In this document: piece after piece, positions 582 through 12,955 of the stretch | Position numbering within the stretch: the stretch's first letter is position 1 | How the letters are laid out: the number at the start of each line of letters is the position of its first letter | Assembly (NCBI RefSeq): GCF_004339675.1 | Contig: NZ_SLVM01000026.1 | Coordinates: forward strand, 1-48,206 | Length of the DNA stretch: 48,206 nt | Reading direction: 5' to 3' | From: Rhodovulum steppense | Lineage (GTDB): Bacteria; Pseudomonadota; Alphaproteobacteria; Rhodobacterales; Rhodobacteraceae | Program-made: the position numbers and the translations under genes | The notes under the pieces: model-generated | The model's database searches: none | Seen by the model: the letters and a program-made list of their open reading frames with translations, nothing else | Told to the model about the DNA's origin: nothing

Positions 582-629
582 TGGCTCCGGCGGTAGGGAT
601 CGAACCTACGACCAATTGATTAACAGTCA
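582..629. repeat. attL: displaced 3' half of tRNA-Asn (48-bp direct repeat)
   Basis: These 48 bp are identical to 12881-12928, the 3' half of the intact tRNA-Asn gene from the anticodon region through CCA. The copies diverge immediately outside on both sides. This is the signature of site-specific integration by a tyrosine recombinase into a tRNA 3' end, and this copy is the displaced fragment. The surrounding gene-free stretch 424-807 holds only this core, the arm-type repeats at 740-786 and the integrase leader. No terminator is visible on the far side of this old tRNA end. Confidence 0.92.
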
Positions 630-739
630 TGGAAATACCCTTTCATGGGGTTTCATGGAGCCGGACAGTCTTTCATCAAGCATCTGATATTGCTCTCATA
701 TTGCCTCACTCTGCCGGAACGTGTATCCTTCGGTTTCAA

Positions 740-786
740 GTCACGGTGGCGACTCGGTGGCGATTCATGCGGTTGAATCGCCACCG
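740..786. promoter_or_regulatory. Integrase arm-type sites / inverted repeat in front of int
   Basis: Positions 740-770 are a 31-bp sequence repeated perfectly and in the same orientation at 12787-12817 near the other end of the element. It contains two copies of CGGTGGCGA spaced 11 bp apart. Its right part also forms a perfect 13-bp inverted repeat, 755-767 against 774-786, with a 6-base loop, giving a third inverted copy of the motif. Placement just inside both att cores suggests arm-type binding sites for the integrase or its directionality factor. Placement 20-70 bp before the int start suggests autoregulation too. Confidence 0.65.
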
Positions 787-807
787 GCCACAAGAGGGAG
801 GCAGCGA

Positions 808-2169
808 ATGCCAATCATCAAGATCGGACGCCGGACGATAGCTGCAATCCCGACCCCTGAACGGCCGGTGATCTGGTATGACGAGGCGTTGAAGGGCTTC
901 GGCCTTCTGGTGCGCCCCACGGGCTCGCGCTCGTGGATCATCGAATATCGCCCGGGTGCGGGCGGGCGTGGCGTGGCAAAGCGGCGGATTGTGCTTGGCG
1001 ACCCGGAGACCATGACGCCAGAACAGGCCCGAGCGGCGGCAAAAGAGATGCTTGCCGGAGTTCACCTCGGCGCGGACCCTGCGGCCGCCCGGGCCGAGGA
1101 GCGAGCGGCGGACACGGTTGCCGAGTTGGCGGGCGAATGGCTTGCCCGTCATGTGGAGCCCAAGCGCAAGGCCGCAACGGCAACGCTCTATCGGGCGGTG
1201 CTGGATACGCACATCTTGCCCGCTATCGGCACCCGCAAGGCCGTTTCCCTGACCCGGCAAGACGTGGCGCGGCTGCACAGCGCCATTGCGAACAAGGCCA
1301 AAGGCCCGAAAAAGGCGGGGGCGAAGCGCACCGCGCCGCAGAAGGTCCGGGGCGGCCCGATCATCGCCAACCGCGCCCTTGCCGTGCTCAAGGCAATGCT
1401 CTCGTGGGCAATCGACCTCGGCCTTCTGCCGAAGGGAAGCGAGAATCCGGCCGTGGGTGTTGAGGCATTCAAGGAAAAGGGGCGCGAACGGTTCTTGTCA
1501 TCGGAAGAGATGGCCCGGCTCGGCGATGCCCTTTCTCTGGCCGAGGGCGAGGGGCTGCCTTGGCAGGTTGACGAGGCAGCCCCGGGTGCGAAGCATCTGC
1601 CCGCGCCCGAGCTTCGGCGCGTCAAGTTCGATGCCCACGCGGTTGCGGCAATCCGGCTCCTCCTTCTGACCGGCGCGCGCGTTCGGGAAATCCTTGATCT
1701 GGAATGGCGGCATGTGGATTGGGAACGGGGCATGTTGCGCCTGTCTGACAGCAAGACCGGGGCAAAGGTGATTGTGCTCGGCGGCGCGGCGCTGGCGGTT
1801 CTGGACGGGCTGCCCCGGATCGGCCGCTATGTGATCGCCAGCACCTCGGCAGGGACGAAGGAGGAGAAGCCCCGGGCCGACGTGAATCGCCTCTGGCGGG
1901 CGGTTTGCCGGGTGGCGGGGATCGAAGGCACGCGGTTGCATGACCTGCGGCATTCCAACGCCGCAGTAGGGGCCGGGGCCGGTCTTTCCTTGCACCAGAT
2001 CGGCGGGCTTCTCGGGCATTCGCAGGCCAGCACGACCCGCCGATACGCGCACCTTGCCGCCGATCCGCAACGGCGGGCGGCCGATCTGATCGGAAACGAG
2101 ATCGCGGCCGCTCTCGGGCTCGGCGGTGCCGAGGTGATCGACATGGCAGAACGGCGGGGCCGGGCATGA
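808..2169 (+). CDS. int: Tyrosine site-specific integrase
   Basis: This 453-aa protein is a full-length tyrosine recombinase of the P4/DUF4102 type. An N-terminal arm-binding domain (about 1-95, with YDEALKGFGLLVRPTGSRSW) is followed by a core-binding domain (about 100-225) and a catalytic domain (about 270-430). The expected catalytic residues are present: Arg291 in TGARVREIL, Lys316 in SKTG, His378/Arg381 in LHDLRHS, His404 in LLGHSQAS and Tyr413. An earlier in-frame start exists at 721, but the ATG at 808 follows a good GAGGGAG ribosome site and begins at the family's normal start. It should integrate and excise the element at tRNA-Asn. Upstream inverted repeats may control it. Confidence 0.96.
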   Translation: MPIIKIGRRTIAAIPTPERPVIWYDEALKGFGLLVRPTGSRSWIIEYRPGAGGRGVAKRRIVLGDPETMTPEQARAAAKEMLAGVHLGADPAAARAEERAADTVAELAGEWLARHVEPKRKAATATLYRAVLDTHILPAIGTRKAVSLTRQDVARLHSAIANKAKGPKKAGAKRTAPQKVRGGPIIANRALAVLKAMLSWAIDLGLLPKGSENPAVGVEAFKEKGRERFLSSEEMARLGDALSLAEGEGLPWQVDEAAPGAKHLPAPELRRVKFDAHAVAAIRLLLLTGARVREILDLEWRHVDWERGMLRLSDSKTGAKVIVLGGAALAVLDGLPRIGRYVIASTSAGTKEEKPRADVNRLWRAVCRVAGIEGTRLHDLRHSNAAVGAGAGLSLHQIGGLLGHSQASTTRRYAHLAADPQRRAADLIGNEIAAALGLGGAEVIDMAERRGRA

Positions 2170-4942: not shown

Positions 4943-4984
4943 CCGCTATCGCTTGTCCCGCCATTGAGACGCCTAGAGGATCGC

Positions 4985-7411
4985 ATGAAAACCACAGAAA
5001 AACAACAGATTGCGACCCTCCTCGGGTTTCATGGTGTTTCACTCCTCGAAGAAATCGCGTTCTCTCGCGGGCAATCTGAAACCTCGGCGCGTGTGCGGCG
5101 GCAGGTGTTGCCGCTGGCCGCTTTCAAGGCGCTTCTGCTTGACCATACCGAAGGCCCGAAGGCCGGGCCGTGCTGGATGCCTGCCACGTTCACCGGCAAC
5201 CGGCGATCTGGCGCGGCGGCAGAGGCGGTGCAGGTCGCGGTGCTGGACCTCGATTCCGGCCAGCCGGTTGACGAAATCGCCGAACTTGTCCGGGCGGCAG
5301 GTCTGGCGGCGATCCTGCACACTTCACACAGTCACCGGCCCGAGCATCCGAAGGTTCGGGTGATCCTGTTCCCGGCCCGGCCTTGGCGGGCGGCAGACTA
5401 TGCGAACACCGGCACGGCAGCGCGCGCATACCGGGCCGGGCTGGCCAATCTGGCCGAAGTGCTCGGGCTTGCCGCCGATCCGGCCGCGATGGACCCCGCG
5501 CGGCTTTTCTTCTTGCCTCGGCACGCGCCGGGCGCGGATTTCTCGGCCGAATGGATCGACGGGGGCGCAGCCGAGGTTTGGCCCGAGCCGGGCGCGGCCC
5601 CGGCTATCGGCGAGGTGCTTCCCGCACTGGCCGGTGAAGGCGAGGTGCCGCCCGAGGTGCTGTTCTCGGCCTTGGCGGCGATCCGAAATGACTCCCGGTT
5701 CGGGCGGCACGAATGGGTGAAAACAATCGCGGCCGTGCGCAATGCCCTCGGCGAGGAAGGGCGCGAGGCGGCCGAGGCGTGGTCTGCGGAATGGTCTGAG
5801 GGCGATCACGACCCGGACGAGTTCGCCCGGGTGTGGGAGTCGATCCATGACCCGCGCGCGAGTGCGGGCACAATCTTCATGTATGCCCGGCGCGACGGCT
5901 GGTCCGATCCCCGGGCCGAGGCCGAGCGCGAACGCCTTCTTGCCGCCTTCGATGACCTGCCCACTGACGAGGAAGAAGCCGAGCTTGCCGAGCGAGCGGC
6001 AGCGGATCGGCTGGCCGAGTTCGGGGATATTGCGAACGGTGCCGCGCACGCGGATCGCATCCGGGGCACGCGCCGCTATGTCTCGGCGACTCGGCAATGG
6101 CTCGTATGGACCGGCGCGCGATGGGCGGCACAGACGGCCGAGGAAACCATGCGCGATGCCAAGGCGACAAGCGCGGCAATGGTTTCCCGTGTCGCACGGG
6201 AGGCCCGGCGCGACCCGGGCGGGCTCGCCAAGGGGCGCATGGCGAAGGCGATGGCCTTGCATGGCAGCGCGGCCGCCCTCGCGCGCATGGTAGAGATGGC
6301 ACAATCCGAACGCGGGATGCACGGTGCCAGCCCGGCCGAATTTGACGCGAACCCGCTGGACCTGACTTGCCGGAACGGGATTCTTGATCTGCGAACCGGG
6401 CTCCTGCGGCAGGCGCGGCCGCACGACCTCGTGTCCAAGCTGGCCGGGGCCGCGTTCGAACCTGCCGCCCGCGCGCCGGTCTGGGAACGCTTCCTTGAAA
6501 CCGTGATCCCCGATTCCGAAGTGCGGGCATTTGTGCAGCGGGCGGTGGGCTACACCCTGACCGGCAGCGTTGACGAGGAGGTGTTCTTTCTCGCGCACGG
6601 CACCGGGGCGAACGGCAAAAGCGTCTTCGCCAACGTCATTGCGGCGATGCTCGGCGAGTTCTCGGGCAGCTTCGGTGCGGCGCTGGTGACTCGGCAAAAG
6701 CACGAGAACGAGGCACACCGCATGGTGGCCCGGCTGCCCGGCCTGCGGCTCGCCCTCGTGAACGAGACGGGAGTCGGCGATTTGTGGGATTCAGGCCGCA
6801 TGAAGGAGTTGGCTTCGCGCGAGCGCATGTCTGCCCGCCTCCTGCACAAAGAGGCGTTCGATTTCATGCCCACGGCGAAACTCTGGATTCGCACAAACCA
6901 TCTGCCCGGTTCGCTGGACGCGGGCGATGGATTCTGGCGGCGCTGCGTGCCGATCCCCTTCACGACACAGATTGCGGCGGAAAGCCGGGTGCCCGATCTG
7001 GACCGGCAGATAATCGCGGCCGAGCTTTCGGGCGTGCTCAATTGGGCCGTGGCGGGTGCCGTGGCATGGGCGCGCGGCGGGTTGCAGGTGCCGCGTTCGA
7101 TCCGGGGCGAGGTGGAAACCTACCGCGAGGAGACGGACCTTCTCGGCCAGTGGATTGCCGAGCGCACGCAGCGCGACCCGCAGAGCCGGGTGCCAGTGGC
7201 CGAGGCGTTCCGCGATTACGAGGAATTTTGCCGCTCGCTCGGCGCGAACGCGGGCACGGCAATGACGTTTTCCCGCGCAATGTCATCCCGAGGTGTGAAC
7301 CGTGATCCGAGCCGAAAACAGGGCCGCCGGTTCATGGGCTTCCGGCTCCGCGAACGTTTGCGGCAAGAAGATTTCGACGATGATGCGGACGATTTTTCCC
7401 GGTTGATCTGA
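4985..7411 (+). CDS. P4-type primase / SF3 helicase replication protein
   Basis: This 808-aa replication protein combines several activities. An archaeo-eukaryotic primase-like region (about 40-200) has a DLD acidic motif at 88-90 and a HTSHSH motif at 112-117. A PriCT-like helical domain (about 225-300) and a D5-N domain (about 350-500) follow. The superfamily-3 helicase core has Walker A GTGANGKS at 539-546, and a conserved LWIRTNHLPG segment follows downstream. Such proteins start and drive replication of P4 satellites, PICI islands and many plasmids. The ATG at 4985 with AGAGGA before it is preferred to a TTG at 4964. A candidate origin lies 33 bp past its stop, matching the gene-origin pairing in P4. 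Confidence 0.93.
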   Translation: MKTTEKQQIATLLGFHGVSLLEEIAFSRGQSETSARVRRQVLPLAAFKALLLDHTEGPKAGPCWMPATFTGNRRSGAAAEAVQVAVLDLDSGQPVDEIAELVRAAGLAAILHTSHSHRPEHPKVRVILFPARPWRAADYANTGTAARAYRAGLANLAEVLGLAADPAAMDPARLFFLPRHAPGADFSAEWIDGGAAEVWPEPGAAPAIGEVLPALAGEGEVPPEVLFSALAAIRNDSRFGRHEWVKTIAAVRNALGEEGREAAEAWSAEWSEGDHDPDEFARVWESIHDPRASAGTIFMYARRDGWSDPRAEAERERLLAAFDDLPTDEEEAELAERAAADRLAEFGDIANGAAHADRIRGTRRYVSATRQWLVWTGARWAAQTAEETMRDAKATSAAMVSRVAREARRDPGGLAKGRMAKAMALHGSAAALARMVEMAQSERGMHGASPAEFDANPLDLTCRNGILDLRTGLLRQARPHDLVSKLAGAAFEPAARAPVWERFLETVIPDSEVRAFVQRAVGYTLTGSVDEEVFFLAHGTGANGKSVFANVIAAMLGEFSGSFGAALVTRQKHENEAHRMVARLPGLRLALVNETGVGDLWDSGRMKELASRERMSARLLHKEAFDFMPTAKLWIRTNHLPGSLDAGDGFWRRCVPIPFTTQIAAESRVPDLDRQIIAAELSGVLNWAVAGAVAWARGGLQVPRSIRGEVETYREETDLLGQWIAERTQRDPQSRVPVAEAFRDYEEFCRSLGANAGTAMTFSRAMSSRGVNRDPSRKQGRRFMGFRLRERLRQEDFDDDADDFSRLI

Positions 7412-7443
7412 AACGCCATGAAACACAATCCGGCAGAAAAACA

Positions 7444-7559
7444 GGCTCGGGGACGCATGGGGACGCATTGGGAAGGTTTTTCCATAAATCCCCGCGAGGG
7501 ATATTTCCCTAGAGCCAATATATTTCCCGATCAAATGCGTCCCCATGCGTCCCCGAGCC
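7444..7559. other. Candidate replication origin: 26-bp inverted repeat with iterons
   Basis: Positions 7444-7469 and 7534-7559 form a perfect 26-bp inverted repeat. Each arm contains two tandem copies of the 10-mer GGGGACGCAT (or its complement), so there are four iterons in mirror arrangement. The 64-bp spacer is notably AT-rich for this genome, with TATATTT and TTTTTCC tracts and a small hairpin at ATCCCCGCGAGGGAT. The site begins 33 bp after the primase-helicase stop. Iterons flanking an AT-rich segment next to the replication gene are the classic layout of a P4-type origin. Function is inferred, not shown. Confidence 0.7.
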
Positions 7560-8009
7560 GGGGGCGGATTCCGAAAAGATGGGCCATAGCGCGCCCGGGA
7601 ATCGTCGAATACCGGGGCTCCGCGCACCCCCCGGCCGAGGCCCCCGACAGAAGGGAGCCGGAGCGACAATGTGCAGGAGGTTGCCGAGCGGACGGGCTAC
7701 CGGCAGCACGCTCGCCCGGCCGCCAGTGTCGCGGCGGCGCATCGGCTGCCCGCTGGCGGCCGTGCCCGTTCATCCGGCACCTGCAACGCCGGGGGATCAC
7801 CTCGCGCGCTTCCCGTCCTTGCCTCCTCTTTGACTGGCCGCCCCTCCTGCTATCCGGCACCGCGCCTGCCGTCCTTCGATCTAGTGCCGCTCAACCCTGC
7901 CCGGCCGATCCGCGCCAACGGATTCCGGCACAAGCGGGCCGCCCATGCCGCCCGCCCGATTCACGACCCGAAGCCGGTTTCCGGCGATCATGCTGCAAGG
8001 AGTGAGCCC
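7560..8009. other. Gene-poor stretch between candidate origin and next gene
   Basis: I see no convincing gene in these 450 bases. A 54-codon frame from the ATG at 7669 to 7833 has a purine-rich GGAG leader but no recognisable features. Longer frames crossing the area have unusual composition (Pro/Arg/Cys rich) and are probably chance readings of GC-rich DNA. The section could hold regulatory RNA or further replication sites, but no repeats or hairpins as strong as those at 7444-7559 were noticed. Confidence 0.4.
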
Positions 8010-8369
8010 ATGCACGACCCGACTCGCGTTTCCTCGTTTGACCTCGGCACCTTCGATCCCGTGGCGCGGCCAAGGCGGCAAGCGGCCGCGCAACCGGCAC
8101 CGCCTGCACCGCGCCGGAAGAAGGCGGCAGCCGCCGAACCGGAGCCCGTGGCGGCTTCCCCCGTGGCCGCCTCACCTGCGATTGATCCGGCCGAATTGGC
8201 GGCCGTGCAAGCCGAGCTTGCCGCCCTGCGTGCCGAGGTGGCAGCGATCAAGGATGCCCCGGCCGCCGAGGCCCGCCGCAAGGCTCTGGCCGAGGCATGG
8301 GCGGCCGATCTGGCATGGCGCACCGCCGAGGCCCGGCCGCCAGCGTCACGGCCGCCCGAGGACCGTTAA
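8010..8369 (+). CDS. Hypothetical Ala/Pro-rich protein with C-terminal coiled coil
   Basis: The 119-aa product starts at the ATG at 8010, behind an AAGGAG ribosome site; the in-frame extension to 7671 is not supported. After an ordered start (MHDPTRVSSFDLGTFDP) comes a Pro/Ala/Lys-rich linker (about 25-60), then a predicted coiled coil (AAVQAELAALRAEVAAIKDA) and a Trp-containing tail. No family is recognised. It sits between the candidate origin and the restriction-modification genes and is separated from the methylase by a probable operator, so it likely belongs to the replication side. Confidence 0.6.
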   Translation: MHDPTRVSSFDLGTFDPVARPRRQAAAQPAPPAPRRKKAAAAEPEPVAASPVAASPAIDPAELAAVQAELAALRAEVAAIKDAPAAEARRKALAEAWAADLAWRTAEARPPASRPPEDR

Positions 8370-8452
8370 CCCGATCCTAGGCAAAACGCGGCATCAAAGG
8401 CCGAGGTATTCCGTTTTTGTTCTTGTCGCCGCGTGTCAGATGCTGCAAGAAT

Positions 8453-8465
8453 GACAAAAATTGTC
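8453..8465. promoter_or_regulatory. Probable operator of the methylase gene
   Basis: GACAA-AAA-TTGTC is a perfect 13-bp palindrome ending 13 bp before the methylase ATG at 8479. The methylase carries its own N-terminal helix-turn-helix, and EcoRII/SsoII-type methylases are known to repress their own promoters through such domains. I infer that this is the autoregulatory site controlling methylase and, by transcription through, Vsr and nuclease levels. Confidence 0.55.
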
Positions 8466-8478
8466 CCAGAGGCGCACC

Positions 8479-9753
8479 ATGCTTGATGAATCCCGTTCCG
8501 ACTTCTCCCGGCTCCGTGAACGGGCAGGCATATCGGTAGAAGCCCTGGCACCCCTCGTTGGCTACTCGCCTGCAACGCTCTATCGTTGGGAACGCGGAGA
8601 GGCACTGCCCCGGCAGGCGGCGCTTTCGGTGCTGGAAGACCTCGCGCGCGGCCAAGGTGCGACAGAGGCCGGGCAACCCGCGTTCCGGTTCATCGACCTT
8701 TTCGCCGGAATCGGCGGGATTCGCCGGGGCTTTGAATCGCTCGGCGGCAAGTGTGTCTTCACCTCGGAATGGGATCGTTGGGCGAAGCTGACCTACAGCG
8801 CGAACTTCCCTCATGACGATCACGAGATTGACGGGGACATAACCAAGATCGACGCGAAGGACATTCCCGCGCACGACCTCCTGCTTGCCGGTTTCCCGTG
8901 CCAGCCTTTCAGCATCGCGGGCGTGTCCAAGAAGAACGCGCTCGGCCGGGCGCACGGCTTCGCGGACGAGACGCAAGGAACGCTGTTCTTCGATGTGGCC
9001 CGGATCATCGCCGAGCACCGGCCGAAGGCGTTCCTCCTTGAGAACGTGAAGAACCTCGTGAATCACGACAAGGGGCGCACCTTTGCCGTGATCCTGCGGA
9101 CCTTGCGCGAGCTTGGCTATCACGTCCCCGCGCCGCGCGTGATCAACGCGAAGGGCTATGTGCCGCAACACCGCGAACGCATCCTGATCGCCGGTTTCCG
9201 CGAAAAATGCGATTTCACCTTTGACGATCTGGACGTGCCCTCGCCCTTGAACGGGCCGAAGCTCAAGGCGATCCTGCACCCGGAAGACGGCAGCGAGAAG
9301 GGGCCGGACAAGCACTATACCGATGCAACGGGGCGGGTGAATCCGAAGTTCATCCTGACCGATCATCTGTGGCGCTATCTGCAAGACTATGCCGCCAAGC
9401 ACCGCGCGGCCGGGAACGGCTTCGGCTTCGGGCTTGTCGGGCCGGGAGACGTGGCCCGCACGCTCTCGGCCCGCTATTACAAGGACGGCTCCGAAATCCT
9501 GATTGACCGGGGGGACGGGCAGAACCCGCGCCGCCTGACCCCGCGCGAATGCGCCCGGCTTATGGGCTTCGACAAGCCCGGCGAGTCGGCCTTCAAAATC
9601 CCGGTTTCGGATACGCAGGCTTACAAGCAGTTCGGCAACTCGGTTGCGGTGCCGGTGATCGAAGCCGTTGCGCGGCACATGCTGCCCTATATCGCGGCCG
9701 AGGCGACACAAGACCCTGCGCACCTGCAAAGGCGGCTGCCGCTCGTTGGCTGA
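8479..9753 (+). CDS. dcm: Dcm/M.EcoRII-type DNA cytosine-5 methyltransferase
   Basis: The 424-aa enzyme should methylate cytosine at C5 in CCWGG, protecting host DNA from the EcoRII-like nuclease encoded two genes on. An N-terminal helix-turn-helix (about 8-45, LVGYSPATLYRWERGEALP) precedes the catalytic domain. Motif I is FIDLFAGIGG (71-80). Motif IV is GFPCQPFS with catalytic Cys141. Motif VI is ENVKNL, motif VIII is PQHRERI, and late motifs include RRLTPRECARLMGF and QFGNSVAVPV. The stretch around LLAGFPCQPFSIAGVSKKN is nearly identical to M.EcoRII as I recall it. ATG 8479 is chosen over TTG 8461. The start of vsr overlaps its stop. Confidence 0.96.
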   Translation: MLDESRSDFSRLRERAGISVEALAPLVGYSPATLYRWERGEALPRQAALSVLEDLARGQGATEAGQPAFRFIDLFAGIGGIRRGFESLGGKCVFTSEWDRWAKLTYSANFPHDDHEIDGDITKIDAKDIPAHDLLLAGFPCQPFSIAGVSKKNALGRAHGFADETQGTLFFDVARIIAEHRPKAFLLENVKNLVNHDKGRTFAVILRTLRELGYHVPAPRVINAKGYVPQHRERILIAGFREKCDFTFDDLDVPSPLNGPKLKAILHPEDGSEKGPDKHYTDATGRVNPKFILTDHLWRYLQDYAAKHRAAGNGFGFGLVGPGDVARTLSARYYKDGSEILIDRGDGQNPRRLTPRECARLMGFDKPGESAFKIPVSDTQAYKQFGNSVAVPVIEAVARHMLPYIAAEATQDPAHLQRRLPLVG

Positions 9754-10213
9754 CGTTGTGGACGCCGCAACCCGAAGCCGGATGATGGCGGGCATCCGGG
9801 GGAAGGACACGCGGCCGGAAATGATCCTGCGGCGGGGGCTTCACGCCCGGGGTTTCCGGTTCCGGCTGCATGACAGGCGCTTGCCGGGCTCGCCCGATCT
9901 GGTGTTCCCGGGCCGCCGCTCGGCGGTATTCGTTCACGGCTGTTTCTGGCACGGGCACGCCTGCCCGCTGTTCCGGCTGCCCGCCACGCGGCAAGAGTTC
10001 TGGCGCGCGAAGATCGAAGGCAACGCGGCCCGCGACAAGGCCGCAGAGGCGGCGCTTCTGGCCGATGGCTGGCGGGTGCTGACGATCTGGGAATGCGCCC
10101 TCAAAGGGCGCGGGCGGCTGCCTGCGGAGACGGTGCTTGACCGCGCGGCGGAATGGCTCGTGAATGGCCCGGCGCACGAGGAGATTGCAGGGGGAGCGTA
10201 TGGCGGTATCTGA
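9746..10213 (+). CDS. vsr: Vsr very-short-patch mismatch repair endonuclease
   Basis: This 155-aa protein nicks beside T:G mismatches produced when 5-methylcytosine deaminates in Dcm sites, starting very-short-patch repair. It aligns with E. coli Vsr over its whole length. It begins ADVVDAATRSRMM, has the catalytic aspartate in LPGSPD (Asp51) and the zinc/active-site stretch VHGCFWHGH (His64, His69), followed by PATRQEFW and VLTIWECALKGR. Numbering coincides with E. coli Vsr only if the TTG at 9746 is used, which also gives an 8-base overlap with the methylase gene; GTG 9758 is the alternative. It is encoded between methylase and nuclease and shares their transcript. Confidence 0.95.
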   Translation: MADVVDAATRSRMMAGIRGKDTRPEMILRRGLHARGFRFRLHDRRLPGSPDLVFPGRRSAVFVHGCFWHGHACPLFRLPATRQEFWRAKIEGNAARDKAAEAALLADGWRVLTIWECALKGRGRLPAETVLDRAAEWLVNGPAHEEIAGGAYGGI

Positions 10214-11438
10214 TCTGACGGATTGGCTCGGCGAGTTCTGCGCACCTGGCATCGCCCTTTGCGTGAAGCGGCTTTCGGGCAATGACACGCTCGCCAACCG
10301 GACGCATCAGGCAGGCCCCTATATCCCGAAAGAGTTCCTGTTCCGCATATTCCCGGCGATCAACCGGACGGACGAGAAAAACCCCGATCACTGGTTTGAA
10401 CTGGCGGTAGATTCGCACATGGACGTGCGGCAGGTCCGGGCGATCTATTACAACTCCAAGCGATCCGAGGGGCAGCCGAACGGCCGGGATGAAACCCGCC
10501 TGACCAATTTCGGCGGCGGTGCCTCGGCACTTCTGGACCCGGAGAGCACGGGCGCTCTGACGATCTTTGCCTTTCCGCTGGACGAGAACGGCGCGGCGAT
10601 CCGCTGCCATGTGTGGGTGTGCCGCCACGAGACAGAGGAAGACATTGCCGAGGAGCGGTTCGGGCCGGTGGAGCCCGGCCGATTTGTCATGTGGTCCCCC
10701 GATCAACCCGGGCTGTTCCCGCCCTTTGCGGCCCGGCCCGCCCGGTGCTGGCTGGAACCGGCCGAGATTCCGCCCGCATGGCTGGCACAATTCCCGACTG
10801 GCGCGGATATTGTGCGCAAGACGGTGGAGCTTCGGCCCGAGCATGGCACACCGCCCGACAAGCGGCTTCTGCGGCGGCGCGATTGTGAGTTTGAAATCTT
10901 CCGAAGCGTGGAAGAGGCGATTGAGCTTCCGGCGATCCGAGTGGGCTTCACGACGCTGGACGATTTCATTGCCCGCGCGCAAACCGTGCTGCAACGGCGC
11001 AAGGCGCGCTCGGGCCGCTCGCTGGAACTGCACACCCGGGAAATCCTGATAGAGGAGCGGTTCCGCGAAGGCGTGGATTTCCAACACGGGCCGCAATCGG
11101 AGCCCGGCAAGCGCCCCGATTTCCTTTTCCCCTCGCAGGCTGCCTATCGTGACCCGAGCTTTCCTGAGGCCCGGCTTCGGATGCTCGCCACCAAGACCAC
11201 ATGCCGCGACCGCTGGCGGCAGGTGATCAACGAGGCAGACCGGATTCCGGTCAAGCACCTCCTGACCTTGCAGGAGGGCGTGTCCGAGGCACAGTTCCGC
11301 GAGATGACGCAGGCCAATGTGCAGCTTGTGGTGCCCGAGCCCCTGATTGCCAAGTTCCCGGCCAGCATCCGAACGGACATTGTGACGCTTGAGAGCTTCT
11401 TGGGCGATCTGCGGCTTTTGGTGCCGGGCGCGGCCTAA
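10200..11438 (+). CDS. ecoRIIR: EcoRII-type restriction endonuclease (CCWGG)
   Basis: The 412-aa protein is a full-length homologue of EcoRII (about 404 aa), a type IIE enzyme that needs two CCWGG sites. The N-terminal effector-site domain (about 5-165) includes VKRLSGNDT, RAIYYNS and DPESTGALTIFAF. The C-terminal catalytic domain (about 225-410) has the PD-(D/E)xK-type core: RPDFLFPS with Asp307, then ATKTTCRDRWRQ with Lys332, and HLLTLQEGVS. The ATG at 10200 has a GGGGGAG site and overlaps vsr by 14 bases. With the upstream methylase and Vsr it makes a complete restriction-modification-repair set. Its end overlaps the convergent 70-aa gene by 4 bases. Confidence 0.96.
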   Translation: MAVSDLTDWLGEFCAPGIALCVKRLSGNDTLANRTHQAGPYIPKEFLFRIFPAINRTDEKNPDHWFELAVDSHMDVRQVRAIYYNSKRSEGQPNGRDETRLTNFGGGASALLDPESTGALTIFAFPLDENGAAIRCHVWVCRHETEEDIAEERFGPVEPGRFVMWSPDQPGLFPPFAARPARCWLEPAEIPPAWLAQFPTGADIVRKTVELRPEHGTPPDKRLLRRRDCEFEIFRSVEEAIELPAIRVGFTTLDDFIARAQTVLQRRKARSGRSLELHTREILIEERFREGVDFQHGPQSEPGKRPDFLFPSQAAYRDPSFPEARLRMLATKTTCRDRWRQVINEADRIPVKHLLTLQEGVSEAQFREMTQANVQLVVPEPLIAKFPASIRTDIVTLESFLGDLRLLVPGAA

Positions 11439-11647
11439 AGCCGAGAAACGGCCTCTATGTTCCCAACGGGGCTTTCGGGTATTTTCCCCTCTGACCTAAA
11501 CGCAGGCGCGCCAACGATCACGACTGAATCGCGCATGATTTGAAGCAGATTGCCGGTGTCGGCCGTGCGATCCATCCGTATCGTGCTGAAAGCGGTGGTA
11601 TCACGATAGATGTAAGTGGCGTCGGTGGTCTCTTGATAAGTGATCAT
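11435..11647 (-). CDS. 70-aa hypothetical protein coupled to SDH-type protease
   Basis: The product begins MITYQETTDATYIYRDTTAF and is mostly polar, with several Thr-rich strands (FSTIRMDRTADTG) and a hydrophobic SVVIVGAP segment. No signal peptide is seen and no family is recognised. Its ATG overlaps the stop of the upstream protease gene in an ATGA junction, so the two form a coupled operon. Base composition is lower in GC than the R-M genes it meets tail to tail. It could be a substrate, adaptor or inhibitor of the protease. That is inference from gene arrangement alone. Confidence 0.65.
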   Translation of the reverse strand: MITYQETTDATYIYRDTTAFSTIRMDRTADTGNLLQIMRDSVVIVGAPAFRSEGKIPESPVGNIEAVSRL

Positions 11648-12645
11648 AGCGCCTTCCATCCTTCAAAGGTTCGTTGTTCCTGAATCTGCTCTTGCGGCGG
11701 GTTCGGGGGCGGCAACTGGATTGTGGCACGGCTTATCAGCCCTTCGGTCACAAACCCGTAGGAACCACTGTCCACGCTTTCGATCACACCGCGAACCAAC
11801 TGGTATTGGGCGGTCTGGTCTGGCCCGACAACTGCCATCGGCGTGAAAGGTTCCGAGAGGCGCATTTGTCCGCTATAGCTCCTGTGAAGAGCCTTCAGCT
11901 TGTCGTAGAACTCTGCGCTAGGCTTCTCGACTGGAAGCCCGAGTGTTTCAGCCTCGCGGCGGTTGACAGTGTAATCATGGCTTCCTGAGTCCGCGCACAA
12001 GAAGTCCACGATAGCCTTTACCTTCTCTGCATCTTTCACATGCCCATTGAGCAACTTTTCAGCCAAGAACCGGATTTGCGCCCTAGACCTGAAAATCTCG
12101 CCCAAAACTAGCGGGTGCACCTTATTGGAAAGATCAGTGAGGAGATTGCCGAGAACCTTGTCATCTTTAATGCCAAGGTCCTGCGTTGCAGCGTCCATAT
12201 ACCCTCGGACGGCCTCAACACTGACCGGCAGGCGAGCCAACTGGTTTCCATTTGGCACCTGCGGACCAAGCGGGTGAACCAAGCTAGGGTCAATCGGCCC
12301 AAGGGCCGCTTGCTTTGACATCACAATCCGCTGCGCCCCCAACGAGATCAACGTGCCTGCGCTCATGGCCTTGTATGGAATCAGAACCTCAAATTCGTCG
12401 CAGAAGGTTTTGATGAGGTTAACAAGCCTCCACGCGGCGGCGGTGTTGCCCCCGTTTGTGTGCAGAAGAAGCGAAATGCGTTGCGTTGGTCCGATGGCGT
12501 CCAGCACATCAACAAAAATGTCGATGCAGTCTGCACCGATCTGCGTTTCCGCGTTCGGCCGGTCTCCGGTCACATACGAGATAATCTTGGTGCCGCGTTC
12601 CTGCTCTATTTGCTCGTAGAGCCGCTTGCGCGTCGCGAAATCCAT
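11644..12645 (-). CDS. SDH-type ClpP-fold serine protease
   Basis: This 333-aa cytoplasmic protein matches the serine dehydrogenase proteinase (SDH_sah) family, ClpP-fold relatives of SppA. Visible motifs are LLLHTNGGN with the oxyanion Gly-Gly (65-66), KAMSAGT with the likely nucleophile Ser95, and ALGPIDPSL with Asp119. The N-terminal 30 residues are helical (RKRLYEQIEQERG), and about 200 extra C-terminal residues without known motifs follow. No signal peptide or transmembrane helix is present, unlike most SppA/NfeD proteins. The ATG at 12645 is preferred to a GTG at 12696. GC content is clearly lower than in the rest of the element. Family members recur on mobile elements and near defence genes, but their role is unknown. 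Confidence 0.85.
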   Translation of the reverse strand: MDFATRKRLYEQIEQERGTKIISYVTGDRPNAETQIGADCIDIFVDVLDAIGPTQRISLLLHTNGGNTAAAWRLVNLIKTFCDEFEVLIPYKAMSAGTLISLGAQRIVMSKQAALGPIDPSLVHPLGPQVPNGNQLARLPVSVEAVRGYMDAATQDLGIKDDKVLGNLLTDLSNKVHPLVLGEIFRSRAQIRFLAEKLLNGHVKDAEKVKAIVDFLCADSGSHDYTVNRREAETLGLPVEKPSAEFYDKLKALHRSYSGQMRLSEPFTPMAVVGPDQTAQYQLVRGVIESVDSGSYGFVTEGLISRATIQLPPPNPPQEQIQEQRTFEGWKAL

Positions 12646-12880: not shown

Positions 12881-12928
12881 TGGCTCCGGCGGTAGGGATC
12901 GAACCTACGACCAATTGATTAACAGTCA
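12881..12928. repeat. attR: 48-bp direct repeat within tRNA-Asn
   Basis: The sequence is identical to 582-629. It comprises the CCA end, acceptor 3' strand, T-arm and part of the anticodon arm of the functional tRNA-Asn gene. The 5' part of the gene (12929-12955) is native chromosome, while this 3' part may derive from the incoming element, which restored an intact tRNA on integration. Confidence 0.92.
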
Positions 12929-12955
12929 ACTGCTCTACCGCTGAGCTACGCCGGA
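12881..12955 (-). tRNA. tRNA-Asn (anticodon GTT)
   Basis: A 75-nt cloverleaf with encoded CCA. The acceptor stem TCCGGCG pairs with CGCCGGA, the D-arm is AGCTCAGCGGTAGAGC, the anticodon loop is CTGTTAA with GTT, and the T-arm is GTAGGTTCGATCCCTAC. It reads charged asparagine codons AAC and AAU. Its 3' half is duplicated at 582-629 because the gene is the integration site of the element to its left. Confidence 0.96.

Follow-up and report, generated by a model that had tools for sequence, protein, structure and literature searches.

A conserved pair of an SDH-type serine protease gene and an overlapping small gene on temperate phages and integrative elements, a candidate prophage exclusion operon

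What is a protease gene with a tiny overlapping companion doing at the edge of an integrative element that also brings restriction-modification (R-M) genes? The question is raised by a 48,206-nt stretch of DNA from Rhodovulum steppense (contig NZ_SLVM01000026.1, hereafter the window), in which the element is bounded by a 48-nt tRNA-Asn copy (582-629) and the tRNA-Asn itself (12881-12955). The framework of the element consists of the following features:

582..629, no strand: attL, a 48-nt exact match to the 3' part of tRNA-Asn (sequence repeat)
721..2169, + strand: tyrosine integrase of the element (PF00589, E 8.6e-20)
4964..7411, + strand: P4-family primase-helicase of the element (TIGR01613, 205.3 bits, cut-off 108.7)
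8461..11438, + strand: EcoRII-type R-M set of C5 methylase, Vsr and EcoRII endonuclease (Pfam and PADLOC matches)
12881..12955, - strand: tRNA-Asn(gtt), attR side (ARAGORN)

The R-M set makes up the right half of the element, and the protease/partner pair sits between it and the tRNA-Asn, convergent with the EcoRII gene, whose end it overlaps by 4 nt. The GC content of the pair is 0.552, against 0.648 in the R-M stretch (8461-11438) and 0.677 in the stretch around the primase (4964-8400). A first-pass annotation had described the pair as cargo of an element next to attR, lower in GC than its surroundings and pointing toward the R-M genes, and on each of these points it was right: attL copy, integrase and P4-family primase were all found, the GC difference is seen in both named stretches and the two gene ends do converge and overlap. 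No head genes were recognised on the element of the window, which is plausibly a satellite. In this family the tRNA-Asn site seems to be a hotspot of repeated integration, with extra partial copies on the same contig in several of the 61 genomes searched (for example G1133, G1108 and G1137).

The larger gene of the pair encodes a protein of 333 aa, with these features:

11644..12645, - strand: SDH-type (ClpP-fold) serine protease gene, 333 aa (PF01972, 70.6 bits; phrog_11747, E 1.9e-54; AlphaFold/Foldseek)
12361..12363, - strand: codon of Ser95, predicted nucleophile, in MSAGT (invariant, 47/47)
12289..12291, - strand: codon of Asp119, in GPIDPS, with a putative role as catalytic or structural acid (invariant, 47/47)
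11977..11979, - strand: codon of His223, predicted catalytic base, in SGSHD (invariant, 47/47)
11656..11658, - strand: codon of Trp330, in the C-terminal EGW motif (invariant, 47/47; last beta strand of the model)

The protein passes the Pfam cut-off of the SDH family (31.3 bits) and misses that of the SDH equivalog NF047768 (89.9 bits, cut-off 250). It has in common with SDH proteinases (PF01972, NF047768) the fold, the serine in MSAGT and the GPIDP and SHD-type motifs, and its E. coli relatives are named 'SDH family Clp fold serine proteinase' by RefSeq; unlike SDH proteinases, it has an extra beta region of three strands at the C terminus, with EGW at its end, as well as the coupled small gene. 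Ser95, Asp119, His223, Asp224 and Trp330 are invariant in all 47 distinct full-length pair-type proteases (a set that leaves out exact copies and the truncated L063), and the active site is predicted to be intact. His177, considered as another catalytic base, is not favoured; it is kept in 46 of the 47 and, by eye, missing in several distant SDH proteins. The AlphaFold model (pLDDT 78.2, pTM 0.76) has ClpP and SppA as its nearest solved folds in Foldseek (E 1.7e-5, with a TM by query of only 0.3-0.4); its nearest viral models are giant-virus proteins named 'serine dehydrogenase proteinases'. A sequence search of the PDB gave no matches. The C-terminal strands (277-332) are modelled confidently, with the EGW motif at their end; pLDDT falls below 50 at 123-147, 172-184 and 220-223, and because His223 lies inside the last-named segment the catalytic geometry is a prediction only. 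The highest 19-residue Kyte-Doolittle means are 1.22 for the protease and 1.02 for its partner, with a membrane-like stretch in neither, which fits a cytosolic protease. The coordinates of the first-pass annotation, its SDH-type ClpP-fold assignment with Ser95 in MSAGT and its label 'cytosolic' all agree with what we found.

A protease of this fold on phages might act in virion maturation, with the small protein as scaffold or substrate, and there are indeed weak head-maturation matches (NF045542, phrog_53 and phrog_94). However, the NF045542 score (29.9 bits) is far under its cut-off of 120, the E. coli record that we read encodes a separate HK97 prohead protease, and in the regions examined the pair is not part of the head cluster, or sits on the window element with no recognised head gene. 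We give this explanation hardly any credence.

The second gene overlaps the end of the first:

11435..11647, - strand: small coupled partner gene, 70 aa, or 74 aa from 11659 (purifying selection; junction kept in relatives; model)
11644..11647, - strand: 4-nt ATGA shared by the protease stop and the start of the small gene (sequence)

A GGAAGG is located 4 nt ahead of the partner ATG. The alternative in-frame ATG at 11659, which has no spaced ribosome site, was kept as second choice; it is formed by the codons for the conserved Gly-Trp. A start offset of -4 is common in alphaproteobacterial-type relatives, with -8 to -14 in enteric-type ones. The scan for a sigma-70-like promoter upstream of the window pair returned no sites.

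Chance overlap in GC-rich DNA could have produced such a frame, and it was ruled out by substitution patterns and shuffle tests. Between the window and its relative L003, the small ORF has pN 0.047 and pS 0.318 (protease of the same pair of sequences, 0.014 and 0.336), and the 59-aa version of enteric phages gives pN 0.014-0.036 and pS 0.23-0.41 in three comparisons. It is evident that both genes are under purifying selection and that the small gene is real. Four protease relatives in genome contigs (75-97% identical) all have a small ORF at the same junction. For a wider test, 52 loci were reduced to 49 by removing exact copies (compared over the final 300 protease nucleotides). Of these 49, 48 have an ORF of 53 aa or longer that begins between -41 and +30 relative to the protease stop, where dinucleotide shuffles give 12.4, and restricting starts to ATG at -20 to +5 leaves 43 (6.2 expected from shuffles). 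Within AT-rich loci the junction ORF is found in 26 of 30 (shuffles, 2.4). Since near-copies persisted among the 49, loci were also merged at 90% protease identity, leaving out the truncated L063, and the junction ORF is then present in 38/38 clusters (10.6 expected), or 34/38 when starts are limited to an ATG at -20 to +5 (5.4 expected). The sole miss is L063, in which the protease frame is interrupted early; past the break, at the expected place of the junction, there is an ORF of 67 aa. The two genes do form a conserved operon, and the coupled 70-aa gene claimed at the outset can be retained (here 11647 to 11435, - strand, with a 4-nt ATGA overlap).

The protein that this gene encodes was also said to be of unknown family, and indeed the window protein has no matches in Pfam, NCBIfam or PADLOC, and one in PHROG at E 0.3; nor was it matched in plasmids. 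Across pairs the partners have sizes of 55-118 aa with no nuclease features, and they are rich in Ser (13.7%), Thr (10.1%) and Asn (8.0%; 44 distinct sequences). Their dN is 2.0-3.6 times that of the protease (window against six relatives). The window partner models as disordered (pLDDT 48.9, alignment of 7 sequences). With an HMM built from 8 close partners, 6 of the other 36 rank above all 1800 shuffled controls, which suggests by sequence that part of the partners form one family; the remaining ones, those of enteric phages included, could not be linked to that of the window with this HMM. A viral scan with the small-protein alignment, whose short patterns reach only close relatives, returned two loci, both of them in the protease-based set already, and none with the small protein by itself. 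In E. coli the small gene has no listed feature in any of the four regions read, nor under the match in any of the 30 listed records (of 49 matching).

The pair was found in 46 IMG/VR loci by alignment scan, and most of the relatives sit on viral contigs. The E. coli-type protease gene is present in 47 of 5426 genomes, and whole-genome samples gave protease matches in 3/390 (order, limit 1e-20), 3/398 (phylum, 1e-25) and 5/385 (class, 1e-25), the source genome being counted in each; four of these matches (G479, G769, G840 and G867) are remoter relatives that lack the pair arrangement or show it unclearly. With such rarity a housekeeping protease is rejected for the pair clade, and the housekeeping setting with no small gene that the first-pass annotation named as contrary evidence was not encountered there; it does apply to some more distant SDH proteases, which lie amid metabolic genes. 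A tree of the 49 pair proteases and 14 other, hand-picked proteins places all pair members on the same side of one branch (support 89/98, found in 92% of bootstraps), to be read with care given the long outgroup branches. Within it, L071 and L092 cluster with L072, L078 and L080 although phage types and loci differ, a pattern that moving cargo would give. Temperate phages and other integrative elements carry the pair as mobile cargo.

Eleven further SDH relatives were inspected, none with an overlapping small ORF of comparable consistency. One (L042, 3146-4987) encodes a distant SDH protease just downstream of a LexA/CI-type repressor in a lambda-like prophage, followed by a 56-aa gene abutting its stop; in lambda, rexAB holds this same position just downstream of the CI repressor. 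Matches to the L042 protease occur in 19 of 5426 E. coli genomes, with a cover of at least 80% in 17. On a Methylocystis plasmid (L039, 1490-4789) a distant SDH protease comes last in a row of multiubiquitin, E2, ThiF-type E1, DUF6527 and SDH genes, and on a Chlorohelix plasmid (L009, 6001-11445) an SDH relative (32.7%) with a C-terminal QGW is followed 37-43 nt downstream by a 76-aa ORF (annotated with 74 aa) and then by a 1326-aa AAA-domain protein. The Rhizobium plasmid pRCCGE532b (L008, 6001-6806) has a degenerate protease relative annotated as a 219-aa protein.

The places in which the pair is found are very diverse. In Roseobacter insulae (L004) the adjoining tRNA-Asn and host genes are those seen in the window (neighbour proteins 57% and 53% identical), with type I R-M where the window has EcoRII; in L003, whose protease is 97% identical to that of the window, the pair adjoins a VapE/Toprim primase and a helicase, and in L014 and L061 it adjoins integrases. 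P2-like phages (L072 and L078) have it between gpA (phrog_91) and the portal gpQ (phrog_68), and L091, with an adjoining portal 97% identical, was assigned to the same interval, which is the old/tin antiviral hotspot of P2 in the available text of Rousset et al. (2022, PMC9122126). In L092 a CI-type repressor gene (phrog_4) precedes the pair by 246 nt on the same strand. In these four cases, then, loci of exclusion genes are occupied, and the other pairs lie elsewhere. In E. coli lambdoid prophages the pair is between Q and holin, antisense to the late genes, in all four regions read. Where two flanks were called (36 loci by heuristic gene calls, with 11 others also left out), both are opposite to the pair in 13 and both in the same orientation in 10; because of this mixture, lysogenic expression may not hold at every locus.

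A counter-defence function, with the protease degrading host defence proteins upon entry of the element, would agree with the many phages that carry the pair and with the R-M set beside it in the window, for which an anti-restriction role is thinkable. But in E. coli prophages the pair stands alone, antisense to the late genes and at a distance from the early region, and the window element brings its own R-M rather than fighting one, so that we see little chance for this explanation.

The neighbour set comprised 112 proteins, two per side, from a heuristic gene caller, leaving out proteins under 80 aa and 11 near-copy or repeated loci. The commonest PHROG matches (among the best 25 of 190 families) are Q-like antiterminators (7), HNH endonucleases (4) and integrases (4), then holins, portals and phrog_4 repressors (3 each). 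PADLOC families appear one protein at a time (each of the best 25 of 91), that is, defence genes among the neighbours are few and scattered. Just upstream of the pair on a viral contig (L060, 1-3886) there is a 922-aa protein, likely the source of the PADLOC helicase matches (such as HmaA, DrmD and BrxH). The term 'module on a defence island' is hence too narrow, with most relatives on viral contigs.

The repressors and antiterminators in this set call to mind control of the phage life cycle, in which the protease would cleave the repressor of its own prophage or another regulator and so govern induction, tuned by the small protein. ImmA peptidases act so on ImmR, and L092 has the pair beside a CI-type repressor. 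At most loci, however, there is no adjoining repressor, location varies widely, and R-M cargo adjoins the pair in two tRNA-Asn islands, making such a role rather improbable in our judgement.

The protease is a member of the Pfam SDH family, and its membership of any defence family is unsupported: PADLOC-DB 2.0.0 has no families for protease or partner at E up to 1, and the literature searched (mostly without subscription papers) gave no description of an SDH protease pair in defence. Brenes and Laub are said to have reported a prophage defence screen in 2025, which may have included this pair. Several known systems are nonetheless alike in form. RexAB, in the accessible part of PMC12894663, is a two-gene prophage exclusion unit just downstream of CI, made up of a DNA-binding sensor (RexA) and a membrane effector (RexB). 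The pair is likewise a two-gene unit, and in L092 it too follows a CI-type repressor, but it consists of a soluble protease and a predicted disordered partner, with no homology found and, judging by hydropathy, no RexB-type membrane effector. Old/Tin and other gpA-gpQ systems, in the available text of PMC9122126, share the P2-like locus and use other proteins; the word 'protease' is absent from its main text. PD-T4-10, as described in the accessible part of PMC9519451, is an abortive-infection defence with two overlapping ORFs, toxin-antitoxin-like, the toxin being the second gene and neither protein having a known fold; the ORFs of the pair also overlap, with no demonstrated homology, and unlike there its first gene has a known fold (SDH/ClpP). 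In nuclease-protease pairs of antiviral immunity, as far as presented in the accessible part of PMC12799240, a trypsin-like protease activates a nuclease; there too a protease goes with one partner gene, whereas here the protease is ClpP-fold and the partner small and with no nuclease features. On this reading the pair may work like RexAB, PD-T4-10 or the protease-partner pairs, by analogy and with no demonstrated homology.

One likely explanation, to which we assign a probability of roughly 0.5, is that the pair is a prophage exclusion operon with a protease effector and a disordered partner as regulator, in which infection releases proteolysis, probably leading to abortive infection. This two-gene cargo operon would exclude other phages and so shield its carrier. 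Its first gene would provide the SDH-type (ClpP-fold) serine protease, a likely effector because its catalytic-type residues are kept, and the second, by coupled translation, a small disordered Ser/Thr-rich protein that would bind and regulate it, a likely regulator because it is coupled, predicted to be disordered and evolving faster than the enzyme by the factor given above. The partner would most likely be an inhibitor, or a cleavable substrate or bait, with an activator also conceivable. Infection would disturb the balance of protease and partner, releasing proteolysis and stopping phage growth, probably by abortive infection; complex formation, the direction of inhibition, trigger, target and antiviral outcome are all parts of this model that we infer. 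It leads because the unit is conserved and several contexts fit exclusion, namely the P2 old/tin interval, the repressor-adjacent site, the lambdoid Q-holin interval and the two R-M-bearing tRNA-Asn islands. The early suggestion of a new abortive-infection system is partly supported: it gains from the conserved unit and these contexts, and loses from the lack of a PADLOC match and the few defence neighbours. Its scope widens from one defence island to a mobile family of two-gene phage cargo.

Two small overlapping genes on mobile elements, here phages and an element with a P4 primase, could also be no more than a stability (addiction) module, with the protease as toxin and its partner as antitoxin, serving maintenance of the prophage or element and not defence. 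A disordered partner is typical of antitoxins. This seems unlikely to us: the effector is far larger than the partner and is encoded first, the old/tin and repressor-adjacent exclusion loci fit defence better, and toxin-antitoxin and defence functions can coincide, as in the accessible account of PD-T4-10 (PMC9519451). Beyond exclusion, stability, life-cycle control, counter-defence and virion maturation, the rest of the probability goes to something else.

If the exclusion operon is extended to all carriers, it could be a widespread temperate-phage immunity family, in which a ClpP/SDH protease would be held in check by a coupled, disordered, fast-evolving sensor or bait and would have spread across lambdoid, P2-like and other temperate phages and R-M-bearing integrative elements, a broader claim that we put forward tentatively, at somewhat less than even odds. 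What had been an uncharacterised protease is now a defined, conserved two-gene unit, located partly at known anti-phage loci and occurring in E. coli prophages and in an alphaproteobacterial element alike. The analysis also exposes a selected small gene that has no listed feature in the E. coli records examined. If the proposal is true, prophage immunity that works through a protease and includes a disordered, translationally coupled partner would be mechanistically new, and it is directly testable in laboratory E. coli.
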